Source of the DNA: Alphaproteobacteria bacterium HGW-Alphaproteobacteria-11
GTDB taxonomy: Bacteria; Pseudomonadota; Alphaproteobacteria; Parvibaculales; Parvibaculaceae
Length of the DNA: 49,422 nucleotides
Direction: 5' to 3'
NCBI GenBank assembly: GCA_002841195.1
Contig: PHEO01000002.1
Span: 1 to 49,422, forward strand
Positions 32,485 to 46,773 of the stretch are shown piece after piece. The notes under the pieces are model-generated. The model was not told the origin of the DNA. It worked only from the letters and a program-made list of their open reading frames with translations, and ran no database searches. Position 1 is the first letter of the stretch, and each line of letters starts with the position of its first letter. The position numbers and the translations under genes were made by a program.

Positions 32485-32540
32485 GGGCCCATGCTGCCCC
32501 GTGCGGGGTCATGGGGGTAGTGAGTAAATTTCGATGTTAT

Positions 32541-32559
32541 ACATAGATCAAATCTATGT
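32541..32559. promoter_or_regulatory. LysR-type operator candidate
   Basis: ACATAGAT-CAA-ATCTATGT, perfect 8-3-8 repeat containing T-N11-A. Confidence 0.55.
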
Positions 32560-33492
32560 GCCAGACTGTCCGCTCCCCAACCGCCCCAGGATTTCCGCCA
32601 GAAAAAGCTCGGTCGGCGTGTTGCGGGCCGGCTCGTCGCGGGTCACCAGATAGACCTGATAGGTGGGCAGCGCGGTTTCGGGCAGAAGCGGCCAGAGGGC
32701 GCCCCGGCTGTCGAGCGTTTCGGCGACGCAGGTCGGCAGGAAGCCGATGCCGACCCCGAGTTCGATCAGGCGCTTGGCCTCGTGCAGGTTTTCGGCGATG
32801 CCGCCGACCTTGCGGCCGAGCCCGTAGCGGCGGCGAAAGCTTGCCAGCTCCTCGGGCTCGTCGGCGCCGGTCGCGACGAAGGCGCGGTCGGCAAGGTCGG
32901 CGGGCCGGGGCACCGTCTGCCCGTAAAGCGCGTGGTTCCGGTCGCAATAGAGCTGCTGCACCTCCTTCATCAGCGGCTGGTAGCGCAATGCGGGATCGGG
33001 CGCGCTGTCGCAGGCGATGCCGATCTCCGCCTCGCCCGATTTCAGCGCCCCGATCACCTCGCGCCAGGGACAGACGTCGATATGAATGCCGACGCCGGGA
33101 TGGTGGCGGTGAAGGGCGACAAGCGCCGCGTCGAATTCCGCCGAGACGACGGACGAGATCATGCGGATGTTGATGACGCCCTCGACGCGGCCCGCCGCCT
33201 TCGCGACCTCATGCGGCGCGGCGCGCACGGCGCCGATCATCGTTTCGCACAATTCGAAAAGCGCTCGGCCCGCCGGCAGCAATTCGACGCCTTGCGCGGT
33301 GCGGCGCAACAGCGGCGTACCGAGATCGTCCTCGAGGCGTTTCAGCGCCGCGCTCAATGTCGGCTGCTGGCGGTTCAGCTTTCGCGCCGCCGCGCCGATG
33401 CCGCCGGCGCGCACGATCTCGTGGAAGATGCGAAAAAGGTTCCAGTCGACATGGCGGGGAAAGCGCGAATGGTCGGCGTTGCGTTCGGGCAT
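32554..33492 (-). CDS. LysR-family transcriptional regulator
   Basis: DWNLFRIFHEIVRAGGIGAAARKLNRQQPTLSAALKRLEDDLGTPLLRRTAQGVELLPAG. Confidence 0.93.
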   Translation of the reverse strand: MPERNADHSRFPRHVDWNLFRIFHEIVRAGGIGAAARKLNRQQPTLSAALKRLEDDLGTPLLRRTAQGVELLPAGRALFELCETMIGAVRAAPHEVAKAAGRVEGVINIRMISSVVSAEFDAALVALHRHHPGVGIHIDVCPWREVIGALKSGEAEIGIACDSAPDPALRYQPLMKEVQQLYCDRNHALYGQTVPRPADLADRAFVATGADEPEELASFRRRYGLGRKVGGIAENLHEAKRLIELGVGIGFLPTCVAETLDSRGALWPLLPETALPTYQVYLVTRDEPARNTPTELFLAEILGRLGSGQSGT

Positions 33493-39148: not shown

Positions 39149-39775
39149 TCAGTCCTTGCCGAGCCTTTCCTTCAGCACTTTTCCCTCGCGGCCCTTCAGC
39201 GCCTCGACGATTGCCTCAACTTGTGCGCGTGCATGATCGAGGCCCTTGTCGCTTTCGACGATGAAATCGGCGCGGGCGCGCTTTTCGGTGTCGGGCACCT
39301 GTTTGGCGTGAATGGCGGCGAACTTCGCCTCATCCATGTCGGGCCGCGCCAGCACGCGCGTCTTCTGCAGGTCGTAAGGCGCGGAGACCACCACCACGAC
39401 GTCGACGCGCGTCTCGCCACCCGTCTCGTAAAGCAGCGGAATATCGAGCACGGCCATCGCGTGGCCGGCGGCGACGCTTTCGCGCAGGAATTCGATCTGC
39501 GCCTCGCCGACCAGCGGATGAACGATCGCCTCGAGTTTTTTCATTTCGGCGGGCAGGCCGAGCACTGCGCGCGACAGCGCCTTGCGGTCGACCGCATCGT
39601 CGACTATGGCGGAAGGAAAGGCGGCGCGGATCAGCTCGACCGCCTTGCCGCCTTTTTCATAAAGGTGATGCACCGCCGCGTCGGCGTCGTAGACCGGAAC
39701 GCCCAGCGCGCGGAACATCTTGGCTGTTTCCGATTTTCCCATGCCGATGGAGCCGGTGAGGCCGACAAGCAGCAT
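39149..39775 (-). CDS. coaE: Dephospho-CoA kinase
   Basis: [38 protein letters not shown]. Confidence 0.96.
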
Positions 39776-39785
39776 GTTTTCCTCC

Positions 39786-40625
39786 CTAATGCTTCGCGAT
39801 GTCGGCAAGCACCAGCTTGCGCAATTGTTCCGTCACTTCGGGCCTGACGCCGAACCAGGCCTCGAAACCCGGCACCGCCTGGTGCAGCAGCATGCCGAGA
39901 CCGTCGACAATTTCGTGTCCCGCTTCGCGGGCGCGGCACAAGAGGCCGGTTTCGAGCGGCGTATAAACAATGTCGGAGACGAGCGCGTCCTTCGGCAAGG
40001 GCGCGAGGTCGAGATCGACGTCGCTTTCGCCCTTCATGCCGAGCGTCGTCGTGTTGACCAGTAGCGCGGCGCCATCGAGGGCGGACGCCACATCTGTCTC
40101 GGCGAAAATGCGGGCGGCCTTGAGACCCAGATCGGCGGCGAGCGCCTCGGCGCGGGCCGGTGTTCGGTTGACGATGCGGATTTCCGGTGCGCCTTCATCC
40201 TCGAGCGCGGCGGCGATGGCGCGCGCGGCGCCGCCCGCACCGAGAAGAACGGCAGGGCCGCGGCTCGCCTTCCAGCCGGCGGCGCGATCCTTCAGATTGG
40301 CGATGAAGCCATAGCCGTCGGTGTTGCGGCCTTCGAGCCCCTTTGCCGTGGTGACAATCGTGTTGACGGCCTTGAGCCGCCTTGCCACCGCGTCATGCCG
40401 GTCGAGCGCGGCGAAGGCGGTTTCCTTGTGGGGTACGGTCACATTGGCGCCGACAAAGCCGAGCTTCGGCAGGTCGCGGATCGTCGCGGCGGCGTCTTCC
40501 GGCTTCACCGCCATCGGCTCGTAGCGCGCGTCCGGAATCCTGTATTCGGCGATCCAGTGATTGTGGATCAGCGGCGAGCGCGAATGGGTGACGGGCCAGC
40601 CGATGACACATACTTTTCTTGTCAT
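39786..40625 (-). CDS. aroE: Shikimate dehydrogenase
   Basis: [21 protein letters not shown]...[17 protein letters not shown]...[15 protein letters not shown]. Confidence 0.96.
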
Positions 40626-40671: not shown

Positions 40672-41280
40672 TCATTTCAGCACCGCTCCCCGCGCGCGCA
40701 GCTCGTCGAGCAGCGGCAAGAGCGGCAGACCGAGAATGGTGAAGTAGTCGCCCTCGATCCGCTCGAACAATTGCACGCCCGGTCCTTCGAGCTGGTAGCA
40801 GCCGACGCTTTTCAATACGCGCTCGCCGGCCAGCGCCAGATATTCGTCGAGAAAATCATCCGTGAAGTCGCGCATCGTCAGATGGGCCTGCCCCGCATGG
40901 CTCCAGACGACGACATCGTTTGCCACCAGCGCAACGCCGCTATGCAGAATGTGCGGCCGTCCCCTGAAGGCAAGAAGGTTGGCGCGGGCTTCGGCCATCG
41001 ACTTCGGCTTGTCGTATCTTTTGCCCTCACAGGACAATATCTGGTCGGCGCCGATCACCAGCGCTTGCGGATTGCCGCGCGACACAGCGCGGGCTTTTTC
41101 CGCCGCCAGTTTCAGCGCCAGCGCGTCGGTATCGGCCGCATCGTCGCGGCCGGCGAATCCGCGCTTCACTTCTTCTTCGTCGAGCCGCGAATCCGCGACC
41201 TCGAAATCGAGGCCGGCGCCTTTCAGAAGGCTTGCGCGCACCGCGCTGGCGGAAGCAAGAATGAGAGGGGGTTTCGCCAT
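40672..41280 (-). CDS. maf: Maf-family nucleotide pyrophosphatase
   Basis: [23 protein letters not shown]...[27 protein letters not shown]. Confidence 0.93.
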
Positions 41281-41285
41281 CGCGC

Positions 41286-42110
41286 TCAGCCGGTCTTTTG
41301 CCGCTCATTATAGAGATTGAGCACGGCCGCCGCCGTTTCCTCGATCGAGCGCCGCGTCACGTCGATCACCGGCCAGCCGTTGCGGGCAAAGAGCTTGCGC
41401 GCGAAGGCGACTTCCTCGGCCACGACTTCCGGTTCGACATAATCGGTGTCGGCCTTCTCGTGCAGCGAAAGCAGGCGGTTCTTGCGGATTTGCACCAGGC
41501 GATCCGGGCTCGTCGTCAGGCCGACGATCAACGGATGCGCGGCGGTTTCGAGATCGGCGGGCATCACCGCGCCCGGCACGATTGGAATGTTGGCGGCCTT
41601 GATGCCGCGGTTCGCCAGATAGATGCAGGTCGGCGTTTTCGAGGTGCGGCTGACGCCGAGCAGGATCACATCGGCCTCGTTGAGGTCGCCGGCCGACTGA
41701 CCGTCATCATGCGCCATCGTGAAATTGAGCGCCGTGATGCGGCCGAAATACTCGGCATCCATTGTGTGCTGCGAGCCGGGCTTGTGCGAACTCTCCTTGC
41801 CCAGATATTGCCCGAGCGCCAGCATCGCCGGGTCGAGCACCGAAATGCAGGGCGATTGCAGCTCGGCGCAGCGCCGCTCCAGCCGCGCCCGGAGCTCGTC
41901 ATTGACCATCGTGAACATCACGATGCCGGGCGCCGCCTCGATCTCGCCGAGCACGCGTTCGAGCTGCTTGGGTCCGCGCACCAGCGCATAGACATGCTCG
42001 ATCGGCCGTGCGTCCTCATATTGGGCGCAAGCGGCGCGCGCCACCGTGTTCAGCGTTTCGCCGGTGGCGTCCGACACGAGATGGAGATGGAAAACGCGTT
42101 TGGCGCTCAT
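41286..42110 (-). CDS. ppsR: PEP synthetase regulatory protein (DUF299; kinase/pyrophosphorylase)
   Basis: VFHLHLVSDATGETLNTVARAACAQY...DVILLGVSRTSKTPTCIYLANRGIKAANIPIVPG. Confidence 0.95.
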   Translation of the reverse strand: MSAKRVFHLHLVSDATGETLNTVARAACAQYEDARPIEHVYALVRGPKQLERVLGEIEAAPGIVMFTMVNDELRARLERRCAELQSPCISVLDPAMLALGQYLGKESSHKPGSQHTMDAEYFGRITALNFTMAHDDGQSAGDLNEADVILLGVSRTSKTPTCIYLANRGIKAANIPIVPGAVMPADLETAAHPLIVGLTTSPDRLVQIRKNRLLSLHEKADTDYVEPEVVAEEVAFARKLFARNGWPVIDVTRRSIEETAAAVLNLYNERQKTG

Positions 42111-42660
42111 CGAAACCCTGGCTGCGGATTTAAGATCGTGGCGGCCGGAGCTGCCGCGCGGGCAAAGGTATCGGGGGCATCTTGTCCGCGCCAATTCTTT
42201 TTCCGCAAGCCGTATAACTGCGATGCGCCATGTTGCGGGCTTGCCTGTGGAACAGTGTGATTAACGGGGGTAAGCGGGGGTTTCGGCCCAAGCCCTACCC
42301 GGTCATACCCGTGTTTCGTTTTCGCTCCCCCGTTCCATAGGCCGGTGCGAAAAATCGCTGCAGTGCTTTGCAAAACGGGTATGACCGGCCGGTCGGCGCA
42401 GGCGCCAGGAGTTGTCCCCGTTGTTAACGTCTTGCAAGGGAAATGGCTCCACAGCCTATGCCCTTGCTGGCAAAGGCGCGGCTGTTTGGCAGGCTGTAAT
42501 TTGTCACAAGCTATGGCATGAAGGGCGCGGATGACGATCCGCGGGCAGGGCATGCGCGTATCTGTGGACAAGACGGCGCGGATATTTGATCCCCGGCATT
42601 CACAGCTATCCTTCACTATCCACTATTTTTAAGATTCTTGAATCGTAGGAGAAAAAGCGG
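42111..42660. other. oriC: Candidate chromosomal replication origin (Caulobacter-type, hemE-proximal)
   Basis: Non-coding gap between divergent ppsR and hemE-hemH-hemJ-rho; DnaA-box-like sites at 42563-42571 and 42616-42624; AT-rich tract about 42601-42656; 14-bp inverted repeat. Confidence 0.75.
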
Positions 42661-43713
42661 GTGACAAGCGCGAGCGCCGCGGAGAAACGGCTTCTGAAGG
42701 CGCTGAAGCGTCAACCCGTCGACCGTGTGCCTGTCTGGCTGATGCGGCAGGCCGGGCGCTATCTGCCCGAGTACCGGAAGGTGCGGGCGGAGGCCGGTAG
42801 CTTCCTCGATCTCTGCTACACGCCCGACTTCGCCGAGGAAGTCACCTTGCAGCCGATCCGCCGCTACGGCTTCGATGCGTCGATCCTCTTTTCCGACATT
42901 CTGGTCGTGCCGGATGCGCTCGGTCAGCCCGTTGCCTTCAAGGAAGGCGAGGGGCCGGTGCTGGAGCCGATCACGCATGTCGACGGGATCGCGGCGCTGA
43001 AGCCCGTCGCGGCGATCCGCGAGAAGCTGCAGCCGGTCTATGAGACGGTGCGGCGCTTGCGGGTCAGCCTGCCGGCCGAGACGACGCTGATCGGCTTTGC
43101 CGGCGCGCCATGGACGGTTGCGAGCTACATGGTGGGCGGGCGCGGTTCGCCGGATCAGGCCGCCGCCAAGGCCTGGGCCTATCGCGCGCCGGATGAATTC
43201 CAGAAACTGATCGACCTTCTCGTCGCAGCGACAATCGAGCATCTCTCGGCGCAGGTCGAGGCGGGCGTCGAGGTTGTGCAGGTTTTCGATACCTGGGCAG
43301 GTTCGCTGCCTGAACTTTCCTTCGAGCGTTTCGCGCTGAAGCCGATGCTGGAAATCCGCGCCGCCTTGAAGGCGCGCTTTCCCGATCTGCCGGTGATCGG
43401 CTTTCCGCGCGGCGCCGGGCCGATGACCGCGGATTATTTTCGCGCAACGAAGCTCGATGGCTTGAGCCTCGACACCGCGATGTCGCCGCGCTGGGCACGC
43501 GACAACCTTCAATGCATCGGTTGCCTTCAGGGCAACCTCGATCCGCTGCTGCTGGTCGCGGGCGGACCGGAGATGCGGCGGCAGGCGCTTGGCATTCTCG
43601 ATACGCTCGGCAAAGGCCCGTTCATTTTCAATCTCGGGCACGGCATCGTGCCGCAAACGCCGCCCGAACATGTGGCGGAGCTGGTCGAGATCGTGCGAGG
43701 CTGGCGGGTATGA
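42661..43713 (+). CDS. hemE: Uroporphyrinogen decarboxylase
   Basis: PVDRVPVWLMRQAGRYLPEYRKVRAEAGSFLDLCYTPDFAEEVTLQPIRRYGFDASILFSDILVVPDALG; GTG start. Confidence 0.98.
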   Translation: MTSASAAEKRLLKALKRQPVDRVPVWLMRQAGRYLPEYRKVRAEAGSFLDLCYTPDFAEEVTLQPIRRYGFDASILFSDILVVPDALGQPVAFKEGEGPVLEPITHVDGIAALKPVAAIREKLQPVYETVRRLRVSLPAETTLIGFAGAPWTVASYMVGGRGSPDQAAAKAWAYRAPDEFQKLIDLLVAATIEHLSAQVEAGVEVVQVFDTWAGSLPELSFERFALKPMLEIRAALKARFPDLPVIGFPRGAGPMTADYFRATKLDGLSLDTAMSPRWARDNLQCIGCLQGNLDPLLLVAGGPEMRRQALGILDTLGKGPFIFNLGHGIVPQTPPEHVAELVEIVRGWRV

Positions 43714-44747
43714 CGCGCAAGATCGCCATCGTGCTATTCAATCTCGGCGGTCCAGACGGTCCGCAAGCGGTCGAACCGTTCCTGTTCAACCTGTTCAGCG
43801 ATCCGGCGATCATTCGCGTGCCGCAACCCTTTCGCTGGCTGATTGCGAAGCTGGTGTCGAAACGCCGGGCGCCTGTTGCGCGGGCGATCTATGCCGAGCT
43901 TGGCGGCGGCTCGCCGCTGGTGCCGCTGACGGAGGCGCAAGCCCGCGCGCTCGAAGCGGCGTTAGCCGATGGCGAGTCCGACTATCGTGCGTTTCTCGCG
44001 ATGCGCTACTGGCATCCCTTCGCCGATGAGGCTGCCGCCGCGGTCAAGGCCTGGGGCGCCGATGAAATCGTGCTGCTGCCGCTCTATCCGCAATACTCGA
44101 CGACGACGACCGAGTCCTCGCTGAAAGACTGGGACCGCGCGGCGAAGTTGGCCGGACTTGCCGTGCCGGCAAAAGCGGTTTGCTGTTATCCGGTCGAGCA
44201 GGGTTTTGTTGCCGCTCATGCGGCGCTGCTCGGCGAGGCCTTGGCAAAGGCGGGGACGAGCGACAATCTCAGGGTGTTGTTATCGGCGCATGGGTTGCCG
44301 AAAAAGATCGTCGACGGCGGCGACCCCTACCAGGCGCAGGTCGAGCAGAGTTGCGCGGCGATCGTTGCGCGCCTGAACATGCCCGGTCTCGACTGGATCA
44401 CCTGCTACCAGAGCCGCGTCGGGCCGCTGGAATGGATCGGGCCCTCGACCGAGGCCGAAATCAAACGCGCCGGCGCCGAGGGCAAACGTCTCGTTGTCGT
44501 ACCGGTGGCGTTTGTCTCCGAACATTCCGAAACGCTGGTCGAGCTCGACATCGAATATGCAAAGCTTGCCGCGGAAAGCGGCGTGCCGGCCTATAGCCGC
44601 GTGCCGGCGCTCGGCGTCCATCCCGATTTCATCGCGGGGCTGGCCGGGCTTGTGCGGGCGGTGCGGACGGCGACCGAAATTCTTTGCCCGGAAGAGACGG
44701 CGGGCTATCCCTGCACGGCGAAACTCGCGCTTCAAACGGTGAGCTGA
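43710..44747 (+). CDS. hemH: Ferrochelatase
   Basis: IAIVLFNLGGPDGPQAVEPFLFNLFSDPAIIRVP...LLPLYPQYSTTTTESS; overlaps hemE by 4 bp. Confidence 0.97.
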   Translation: MTRKIAIVLFNLGGPDGPQAVEPFLFNLFSDPAIIRVPQPFRWLIAKLVSKRRAPVARAIYAELGGGSPLVPLTEAQARALEAALADGESDYRAFLAMRYWHPFADEAAAAVKAWGADEIVLLPLYPQYSTTTTESSLKDWDRAAKLAGLAVPAKAVCCYPVEQGFVAAHAALLGEALAKAGTSDNLRVLLSAHGLPKKIVDGGDPYQAQVEQSCAAIVARLNMPGLDWITCYQSRVGPLEWIGPSTEAEIKRAGAEGKRLVVVPVAFVSEHSETLVELDIEYAKLAAESGVPAYSRVPALGVHPDFIAGLAGLVRAVRTATEILCPEETAGYPCTAKLALQTVS

Positions 44748-45190
44748 TGGAATTTCTCGCGGGCTACTACGTCTGGATCAAGGCGCTGCACATCATTTCG
44801 GTGATCTTCTGGATGGCCGGCATGGCCTATCTGCCGCGGCTTTTCGTCTACCACGCCGAAGCGGCGCCCGGCTCCGACAAGTCCGAGACCTTCAAGATCA
44901 TGGAGCGGCGTCTGCTCCGGGGCATCGTCAACCCGGCGATGATCGCGACCTTTGTCTTCGGCATCGCGATGCTGGCCCTCAATCCGGGGCTCCTCTGGGA
45001 CTTGTGGATGCAGGTGAAGCTGGTGCTGATCCTCGTCATGTCGGGGCTGCACGGGGCCTTTTCGCGCTGGCGCAAGGAGTTCGAGCGTGACGAAAACCGC
45101 CGCGACGCCCGCTTCTACCGGATCGTCAACGAGGCGCCGCCGCTTCTGGTGATTTTCATCGTGCTCCTGGCGGTCGCGAAGCCGTTTTGA
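44747..45190 (+). CDS. hemJ: Protoporphyrinogen oxidase HemJ
   Basis: YVWIKALHIISVIFWMAGMAYLPRLFVYHAEA matches the HemJ/UPF0093 pattern. Confidence 0.95.
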   Translation: MEFLAGYYVWIKALHIISVIFWMAGMAYLPRLFVYHAEAAPGSDKSETFKIMERRLLRGIVNPAMIATFVFGIAMLALNPGLLWDLWMQVKLVLILVMSGLHGAFSRWRKEFERDENRRDARFYRIVNEAPPLLVIFIVLLAVAKPF

Positions 45191-45238: not shown

Positions 45239-45507
45239 GATCTCAAGCCGGATTTCTTCCGGCGGCCTTCTTTCAAGTCCTTTCCCGGCCAAGGCCTTAC
45301 CCGGCGACGGCCAGAAGACCGTGCACAAGGCTCCAAGCCCGCAAAGGCGGCCCTCCTTGTGCGATGGCGGAAAGAGCGAAGGCCCGCTTTCCCATTCCCT
45401 TAAAAGACCGTCATCCGAACGACATCCCACCCCTTCAAAGTTCCGCTTCCTTCCGGCCCGTCAGAGGCCCCATCGCGGCAACTCCCAACGAAAGACCACC
45501 CAAGCCT

Positions 45508-46773
45508 ATGACGCAGATCAAGCTGCAGGACCTCAAGGCCAAGTCGCCGACCGACCTTCTGGCGCTCGCCGAGGAACTTGAAGTCGAGAACGCCTCGACG
45601 CTCCGGACGCAGGACATGATGTTCGCGATCCTGAAGCAATATGCCGAGCAGAGTATCGACATTATCGGCGAAGGCGTGGTCGAGGTGCTGCCCGACGGGT
45701 TCGGCTTCCTGCGCTCGCCGGAAGCCAACTACCTGCCGGGTCCGGACGACATCTACGTCTCTCCCTCGCAGATCCGCCGCTTTTCGCTCCGCACCGGCGA
45801 CACGGTCGAGGGCGAGATCCGCAGCCCCAAGGACGGCGAGCGCTATTTCGCCCTGCTGAAGGTCTCGACCGTCAATTTCGAGAGTCCGGACAAGGCCCGC
45901 CACAAGGTCCATTTCGACAATCTGACGCCGCTCTACCCGGATGAAAAGCTCAACATGGAGGTCGAGGATCCGACGCTGAAGGACAAGTCGTCCCGCGTCA
46001 TCGACATCGTGGCGCCGCTCGGTAAAGGCCAGCGCGGGCTGATCGTCGCCCCGCCGCGCACCGGCAAGACGGTGCTGTTGCAGAACATCGCCCATTCGAT
46101 CACGACCAATCATCCCGATTGCTATCTGATCGTGCTCCTGATCGACGAACGTCCGGAAGAAGTGACCGACATGCAGCGCTCGGTGAAGGGCGAGGTGATT
46201 TCCTCGACCTTCGACGAGCCGGCGACGCGCCACGTCCAGGTCGCCGAAATGGTCATCGAGAAGGCCAAGCGGCTCGTCGAACATGGCCGCGACGTCGTCA
46301 TTCTGCTCGACTCGATCACCCGTCTCGGCCGCGCCTACAACACCGTCGTGCCCTCCTCGGGCAAGGTGCTGACCGGCGGTGTCGATGCCAACGCCTTGCA
46401 GCGCCCCAAGCGTTTCTTCGGTGCGGCGCGCAACATCGAAGATGGCGGTTCGCTTACCATCATCGCCACCGCGCTGATCGACACAGGCTCGCGCATGGAC
46501 GAAGTGATTTTCGAAGAGTTCAAAGGCACTGGCAACTCGGAAATCATTCTCGACCGCAAGGTTGCCGACAAGCGCGTCTTCCCGTCGATCGACATTCTGA
46601 AGTCGGGCACGCGCAAGGAAGAGCTGCTGGTCGACAAGGGCCAGCTCTCGAAAATGTATGTGCTGCGCCGCATCCTCAATCCGATGGGGACGGTCGATGC
46701 CATCGAGTTCCTGCTCGACAAGCTCAAGCAGACCAAGAGCAACGACGAATTCTTCGACTCGATGAACACCTGA
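45508..46773 (+). CDS. rho: Transcription termination factor Rho
   Basis: [36 protein letters not shown]...[21 protein letters not shown]...[21 protein letters not shown]. Confidence 0.99.

Follow-up and report, generated by a model that had tools for sequence, protein, structure and literature searches.

The 550-bp non-coding gap between ppsR and hemE (42111-42660) is, to judge from its sequence and that of its relatives, with great confidence a chromosomal replication origin of the alphaproteobacterial hemE/COG1806 type, and very probably a new example of this known type, not a new kind. The initial annotation had named this gap oriC, a proposal that gains support from the conserved position of the gap, its enrichment in DnaA-core motifs and a tandem DnaA module, unique in the genome, that adjoins the least stable DNA. 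Further support comes, in relatives, from GC-skew and GGGCAGGG polarity switches, a nearby parS and a dif-like site opposite. Several computed lines in relatives support the origin position, and we consider the assignment a strong inference, not a demonstration.

Results

The ppsR/hemE gap and its neighbourhood

The window, i.e. the whole stretch of 49,422 nucleotides analysed, starts at the first base of its contig (C153) in a Parvibaculum-like genome of 398 contigs (G000), whose HemE shares 96% identity with its counterpart in a Parvibaculum sp. The limits proposed for the gap are exact: ppsR, encoding a COG1806/DUF299 kinase-pyrophosphorylase (41286-42110, minus strand; PF03618, E 1.9e-92), starts at 42110, and hemE (42661-43713, plus strand; PF01208, E 2.6e-120) has a GTG start at 42661. 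All flanking genes were found in the order and on the strand initially described, with maf (40672-41280), aroE (39786-40625) and coaE (39149-39808) on the minus strand to the left, and hemH (43512-44747), hemJ/UPF0093 (44684-45190) and rho (45364-46773) on the plus strand to the right. Origins of the Cori type have more than 300 bp of intergenic DNA between hemE and COG1806/ppsR, a higher A+T content than the genome and a tract for unwinding. The gap, with its 550 bp, shares these features: its G+C is 57% versus about 64-65% around, and the AT-rich tract noted at its end lies at 42614-42644.

The same divergent arrangement, with a gap of 326-730 bp, is present in more than 100 alphaproteobacterial loci from Parvibaculum, Rhodospirillales, Magnetospirillum, Thalassospira, Azospirillum and Rhizobium relatives, some genomes appearing twice under different locus ids. 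The background given in the initial annotation, a Caulobacter origin beside hemE and a recurrent alphaproteobacterial neighbourhood, agrees with this survey and with the literature (PMC1914354). Within 24 aligned Parvibaculum gaps, islands of conservation stand out from a diverged background. They comprise TGTGGA at about 42246, both arms of an inverted repeat, TCCACA at about 42448, TGTGGA at about 42563, and the block TTTGATCCCCG-NCATNCACAG-NCATCC-NNCACTATCCACTAC adjoining AAGATTCTT. Part of this conservation would be explicable by the promoters of the two divergent genes.

Conserved weak DnaA sites

Three DnaA-box-like sites are distributed along the gap: TGTTCCACA (42246-42254, minus strand; core TCCACA), whose TGTGGA is invariant in the 24 aligned gaps, GGCTCCACA (42445-42453, plus strand; core TCCACA), retained in most relatives, and TTGTCCACA (42563-42571, minus strand), whose core is found in nearly all aligned gaps. 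The last is the best box of the gap, with one mismatch to TTATCCACA, and the closest to the strict consensus TTATNCACA, of which the gap contains no exact copy, carrying conserved weak sites instead. We did not treat this consensus as defining, since it is the search rule of one paper (PMC1914354) and Cori itself uses TGATCCACA and TCCCCA (PMC4285127). Canonical boxes with one mismatch number one in the gap and five in the window, where 2.2 would be expected; these counts alone are weak and were set aside as evidence, the support beyond chance coming from relatives. Among 60 dereplicated ppsR/hemE gaps, TCCACA/TGTGGA ranks first of 2,056 hexamers, with 170 occurrences against 12.3 expected from dinucleotide shuffles, and the hexamers ranked next (CCACAG, TTATCC, ATCCAC, ATCCCC, TCCCCA) are overlapping or related DnaA-box words. 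The gap is, like a Cori-type origin, enriched in conserved DnaA-core motifs.

Searches of the gap for other origin motifs revealed no full CtrA site (TTAA-N7-TTAA), with a single degenerate candidate at 42628, and no IHF consensus (WATCAN5WTR).

A tandem DnaA module next to easily melted DNA

At 42587-42605 on the plus strand, sequence comparison identifies a tandem DnaA-site module, in which TGATCCCCG (42587-42595) is directly abutted by GCATTCACA (42596-42604) and followed by a G. Its pattern recurs across families of the class as abutting nine-mers TRATCCCCR and NNNTYCACA, a G, a CTA-containing strand and AT-rich DNA, with conserved spacing. A search with TRATCCCCRNNNTYCACAG, allowing at most one mismatch, found a single exact match per genome, at the hemE gap, in the host and four relatives (G001, G013, G028 and G035), and few further matches in these five genomes, every one with one mismatch. 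In gaps of the whole class, CTA follows the box 64 times versus 37 expected (z 4.7), and TTT is higher still. In the window, the run of trios is short and degenerate (CTA TTT TTA at 42623-42631), and the repeat step appears nearer 9-10 bp, with ATCC/ATTC at 42589, 42598, 42608 and 42618.

The DNA following the module (42606-42655, plus strand), where an ATCC-repeat and DnaA-trio-like strand grades into the AT-rich tract, is the proposed unwinding region on grounds of stability and motif comparison. The 50 bp from 42606 have the lowest nearest-neighbour duplex stability among 50-bp stretches of the window; at 30 and 40 bp the gap stretch ranks second in instability, behind a site near 32520. 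This other AT-rich, very unstable stretch extends over 32517-32566.

Two adjacent GANTC (CcrM-type) sites, GATTC and GAATC, occupy 42633-42644 at the AT-rich end, and a GANTC is retained near this position in 23 of the 24 Parvibaculum gaps with a varying middle base. Together with the presence of GcrA homologues in the host genome, this retention at the putative unwinding region suggests control by CcrM-type methylation. The host GcrA gene appears split across the ends of two contigs (C249 and C272), probably by an assembly break and not as two genes.

A genus-specific inverted repeat

Two arms within the gap, CCGGTCATACCCGTGTT (42299-42315) and AAAACGGGTATGACCGG (42372-42388), form an inverted repeat (42299-42388) specific to the Parvibaculum genus group. 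Arm spacing is fixed at 75-76 bp, start to start, in more than 20 Parvibaculum gaps, and the exact arm pair is found only in this gap in the host and in G001. All arm changes keep pairing (100% of cells), including one double change; as a covariation signal this is not significant, 35 of 500 shuffles being equally good. An Rfam search of the gap gave no match. We tentatively consider that the repeat might be an element dedicated to the origin of this genus, as two sites for an unknown regulator of initiation or as the stem of an RNA that the origin encodes and that works like CcnA of Caulobacter, a reading that we hold to be possible and somewhat less probable than its contrary.

Probable origin position on the chromosome of relatives

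As the host assembly is fragmented, all chromosome-scale tests of the origin claim were made in relatives. They bear directly on the alternative that replication starts beside dnaA, the ppsR/hemE gap being merely a conserved neighbourhood. This alternative benefits from the position of dnaA some 130 kb from hemE in four relatives (G001, G028, G032 and G035), where coarse skew cannot separate the two loci. In G028, which belongs to another genus, GC skew is steadily negative to 3.605 Mb, then about zero to positive, and its cumulative curve has a flat minimum at 3.605-3.617 Mb; the ppsR/hemE gap (3,605,166-3,605,821) coincides with this change, which occurs 137 kb before dnaA. The GC skew of two Parvibaculum genomes, G001 and G013, is noisy with no clean minimum at hemE. 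The GC-skew check that the initial annotation had called for is borne out by the sign change at the gap of G028 and not by the two Parvibaculum genomes, this comparison being confined to relatives.

For G001, the nearest of the long assemblies, the analysis drew on one region and on pattern searches for the strand-biased octamer GGGCAGGG; its hemE lies at 2.016-2.017 Mb and its dnaA at 2.145 Mb. Here GC skew speaks for dnaA, since it remains negative as far as about 2.14-2.2 Mb, beyond hemE and close to dnaA. The octamer speaks against it: between 70 kb and about 2.0 Mb it is carried by the minus strand (more than 100 minus, 6 plus), and after 2.055 Mb mostly by the plus strand. Its polarity thus changes somewhere from about 2.0 to 2.055 Mb, and it is already on the other strand at 2.055-2.11 Mb, before dnaA is reached. 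The octamer switches in the other direction at 65-71 kb, in the interval that holds a dif-like site (66.1 kb). G013, a complete chromosome in a single contig of 3,914,745 bp, gives the clearest case, and the dnaA origin was rejected as it fails there: dnaA and hemE are 1.39 Mb apart, and a dif-like site at 3.330 Mb delimits arms of 1.941 and 1.974 Mb from hemE (ratio 1.02), versus 3.328 and 0.587 Mb from dnaA (ratio 5.67). An origin at dnaA would leave arms of 3.33 and 0.59 Mb, whereas one at hemE gives 1.94 and 1.97 Mb. Moreover, dnaA is devoid of a DnaA-box cluster, with no box (at most one mismatch) in the 3.5-kb locus of the host and a single one in the initial 6 kb of G013. Altogether we regard a start of replication at dnaA as highly improbable. 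Even less credit can be given to the idea that the gap is an ordinary divergent ppsR/hemE promoter region, possibly DnaA-regulated and devoid of origin function. The gap does separate two divergent genes, and DnaA of Caulobacter also binds promoters (PMC4468827). Such a region, however, leaves unexplained the genome-unique tandem module and the lowest duplex stability adjoining it, as well as the polarity switches, the proximity of parS and the opposite dif-like site.

Words of the GGGNAGGG type were read as FtsK-orienting sequences, which point from origin to terminus, and their polarity in G028 agrees with this reading. In sampled stretches of G013, GGGNAGGG favours the plus strand to the left of hemE (90:27 over 0-1.389 Mb) as well as to its right (144:35 over 1.389-3.346 Mb); a minus bias is confined to the remainder beyond 3.346 Mb (11:35). 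From this pattern and from the orientation of dnaA, reversed relative to hemE, most of the left replichore of G013 (contig C1, about 0-1.38 Mb, loci L127-L156) is apparently inverted. The apparent inversion, which could also be an assembly error, sets dnaA apart from hemE and makes GC skew less clear; it is the best explanation for the missing clean minimum.

In six genomes of the family with both loci on one contig, parS is 12-18 kb from hemE; in the host it is on a separate contig, C324. A switch of strand composition at the locus with the terminus opposite, another property of Cori-type origins, is observed here in the relatives only.

Discussion

The proposed hemE-side origin suggests the following sequence of events. 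DnaA would most likely load on several weak sites across the gap and on the tandem pair at 42587-42604, and would be directed from this pair into the adjoining 42606-42655. This region would then melt and receive the helicase, and two forks would leave the gap and converge close to the dif site. Motif anatomy and published systems are the basis for this order of steps, as for DnaA binding and the melting site. The assignment gives a probable origin to a genus where the position of dnaA and the GC skew are misleading guides, and provides a minimal origin that can be tested.

Among the closest known systems is Cori of Caulobacter crescentus, an experimentally placed origin that lies between hemE and COG1806; the ori region of Rickettsia prowazekii has the same position (PMC1914354). 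Both Cori and our gap have the same boundary genes, an AT-rich tract and parS within some 8-18 kb, and the weak DnaA sites of the gap resemble the weak G- and W-boxes of Cori, TGATCCACA and TCCCCA (PMC4285127, PMC4468827). On the other hand, the gap differs from Cori by having no full CtrA site, IHF consensus or exact canonical DnaA box, and by carrying the genus-specific inverted repeat. Caulobacter also makes an RNA, CcnA, from its origin (PMC8959179). The conserved element of the gap, likewise within a hemE-side origin, could form paired RNA; it has no Rfam match and no known transcript, and we see in this likeness a lead only. The origin of Hyphomonas neptunium was located near hemE by a maximum of marker frequency (PMC6650430). 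This bacterium also has parAB and parS close by and a weak bioinformatic skew signal; it belongs to another order, and the comparison covers its origin region.

The basal unwinding system (BUS), made of tandem DnaA boxes and DnaA-trios, is described as broadly conserved (PMC8287927). The gap differs from it by its short, degenerate trio run (3'-GAT-5') and its apparent step of about 9-10 bp. As in BUS, judged by sequence only, two head-to-tail DnaA sites adjoin CTA-containing, easily melted DNA, and this holds class-wide. The module TRATCCCCR-NNNTYCACAG could be used to recognize hemE-type origins simply by sequence, including those in fragmented metagenome assemblies.
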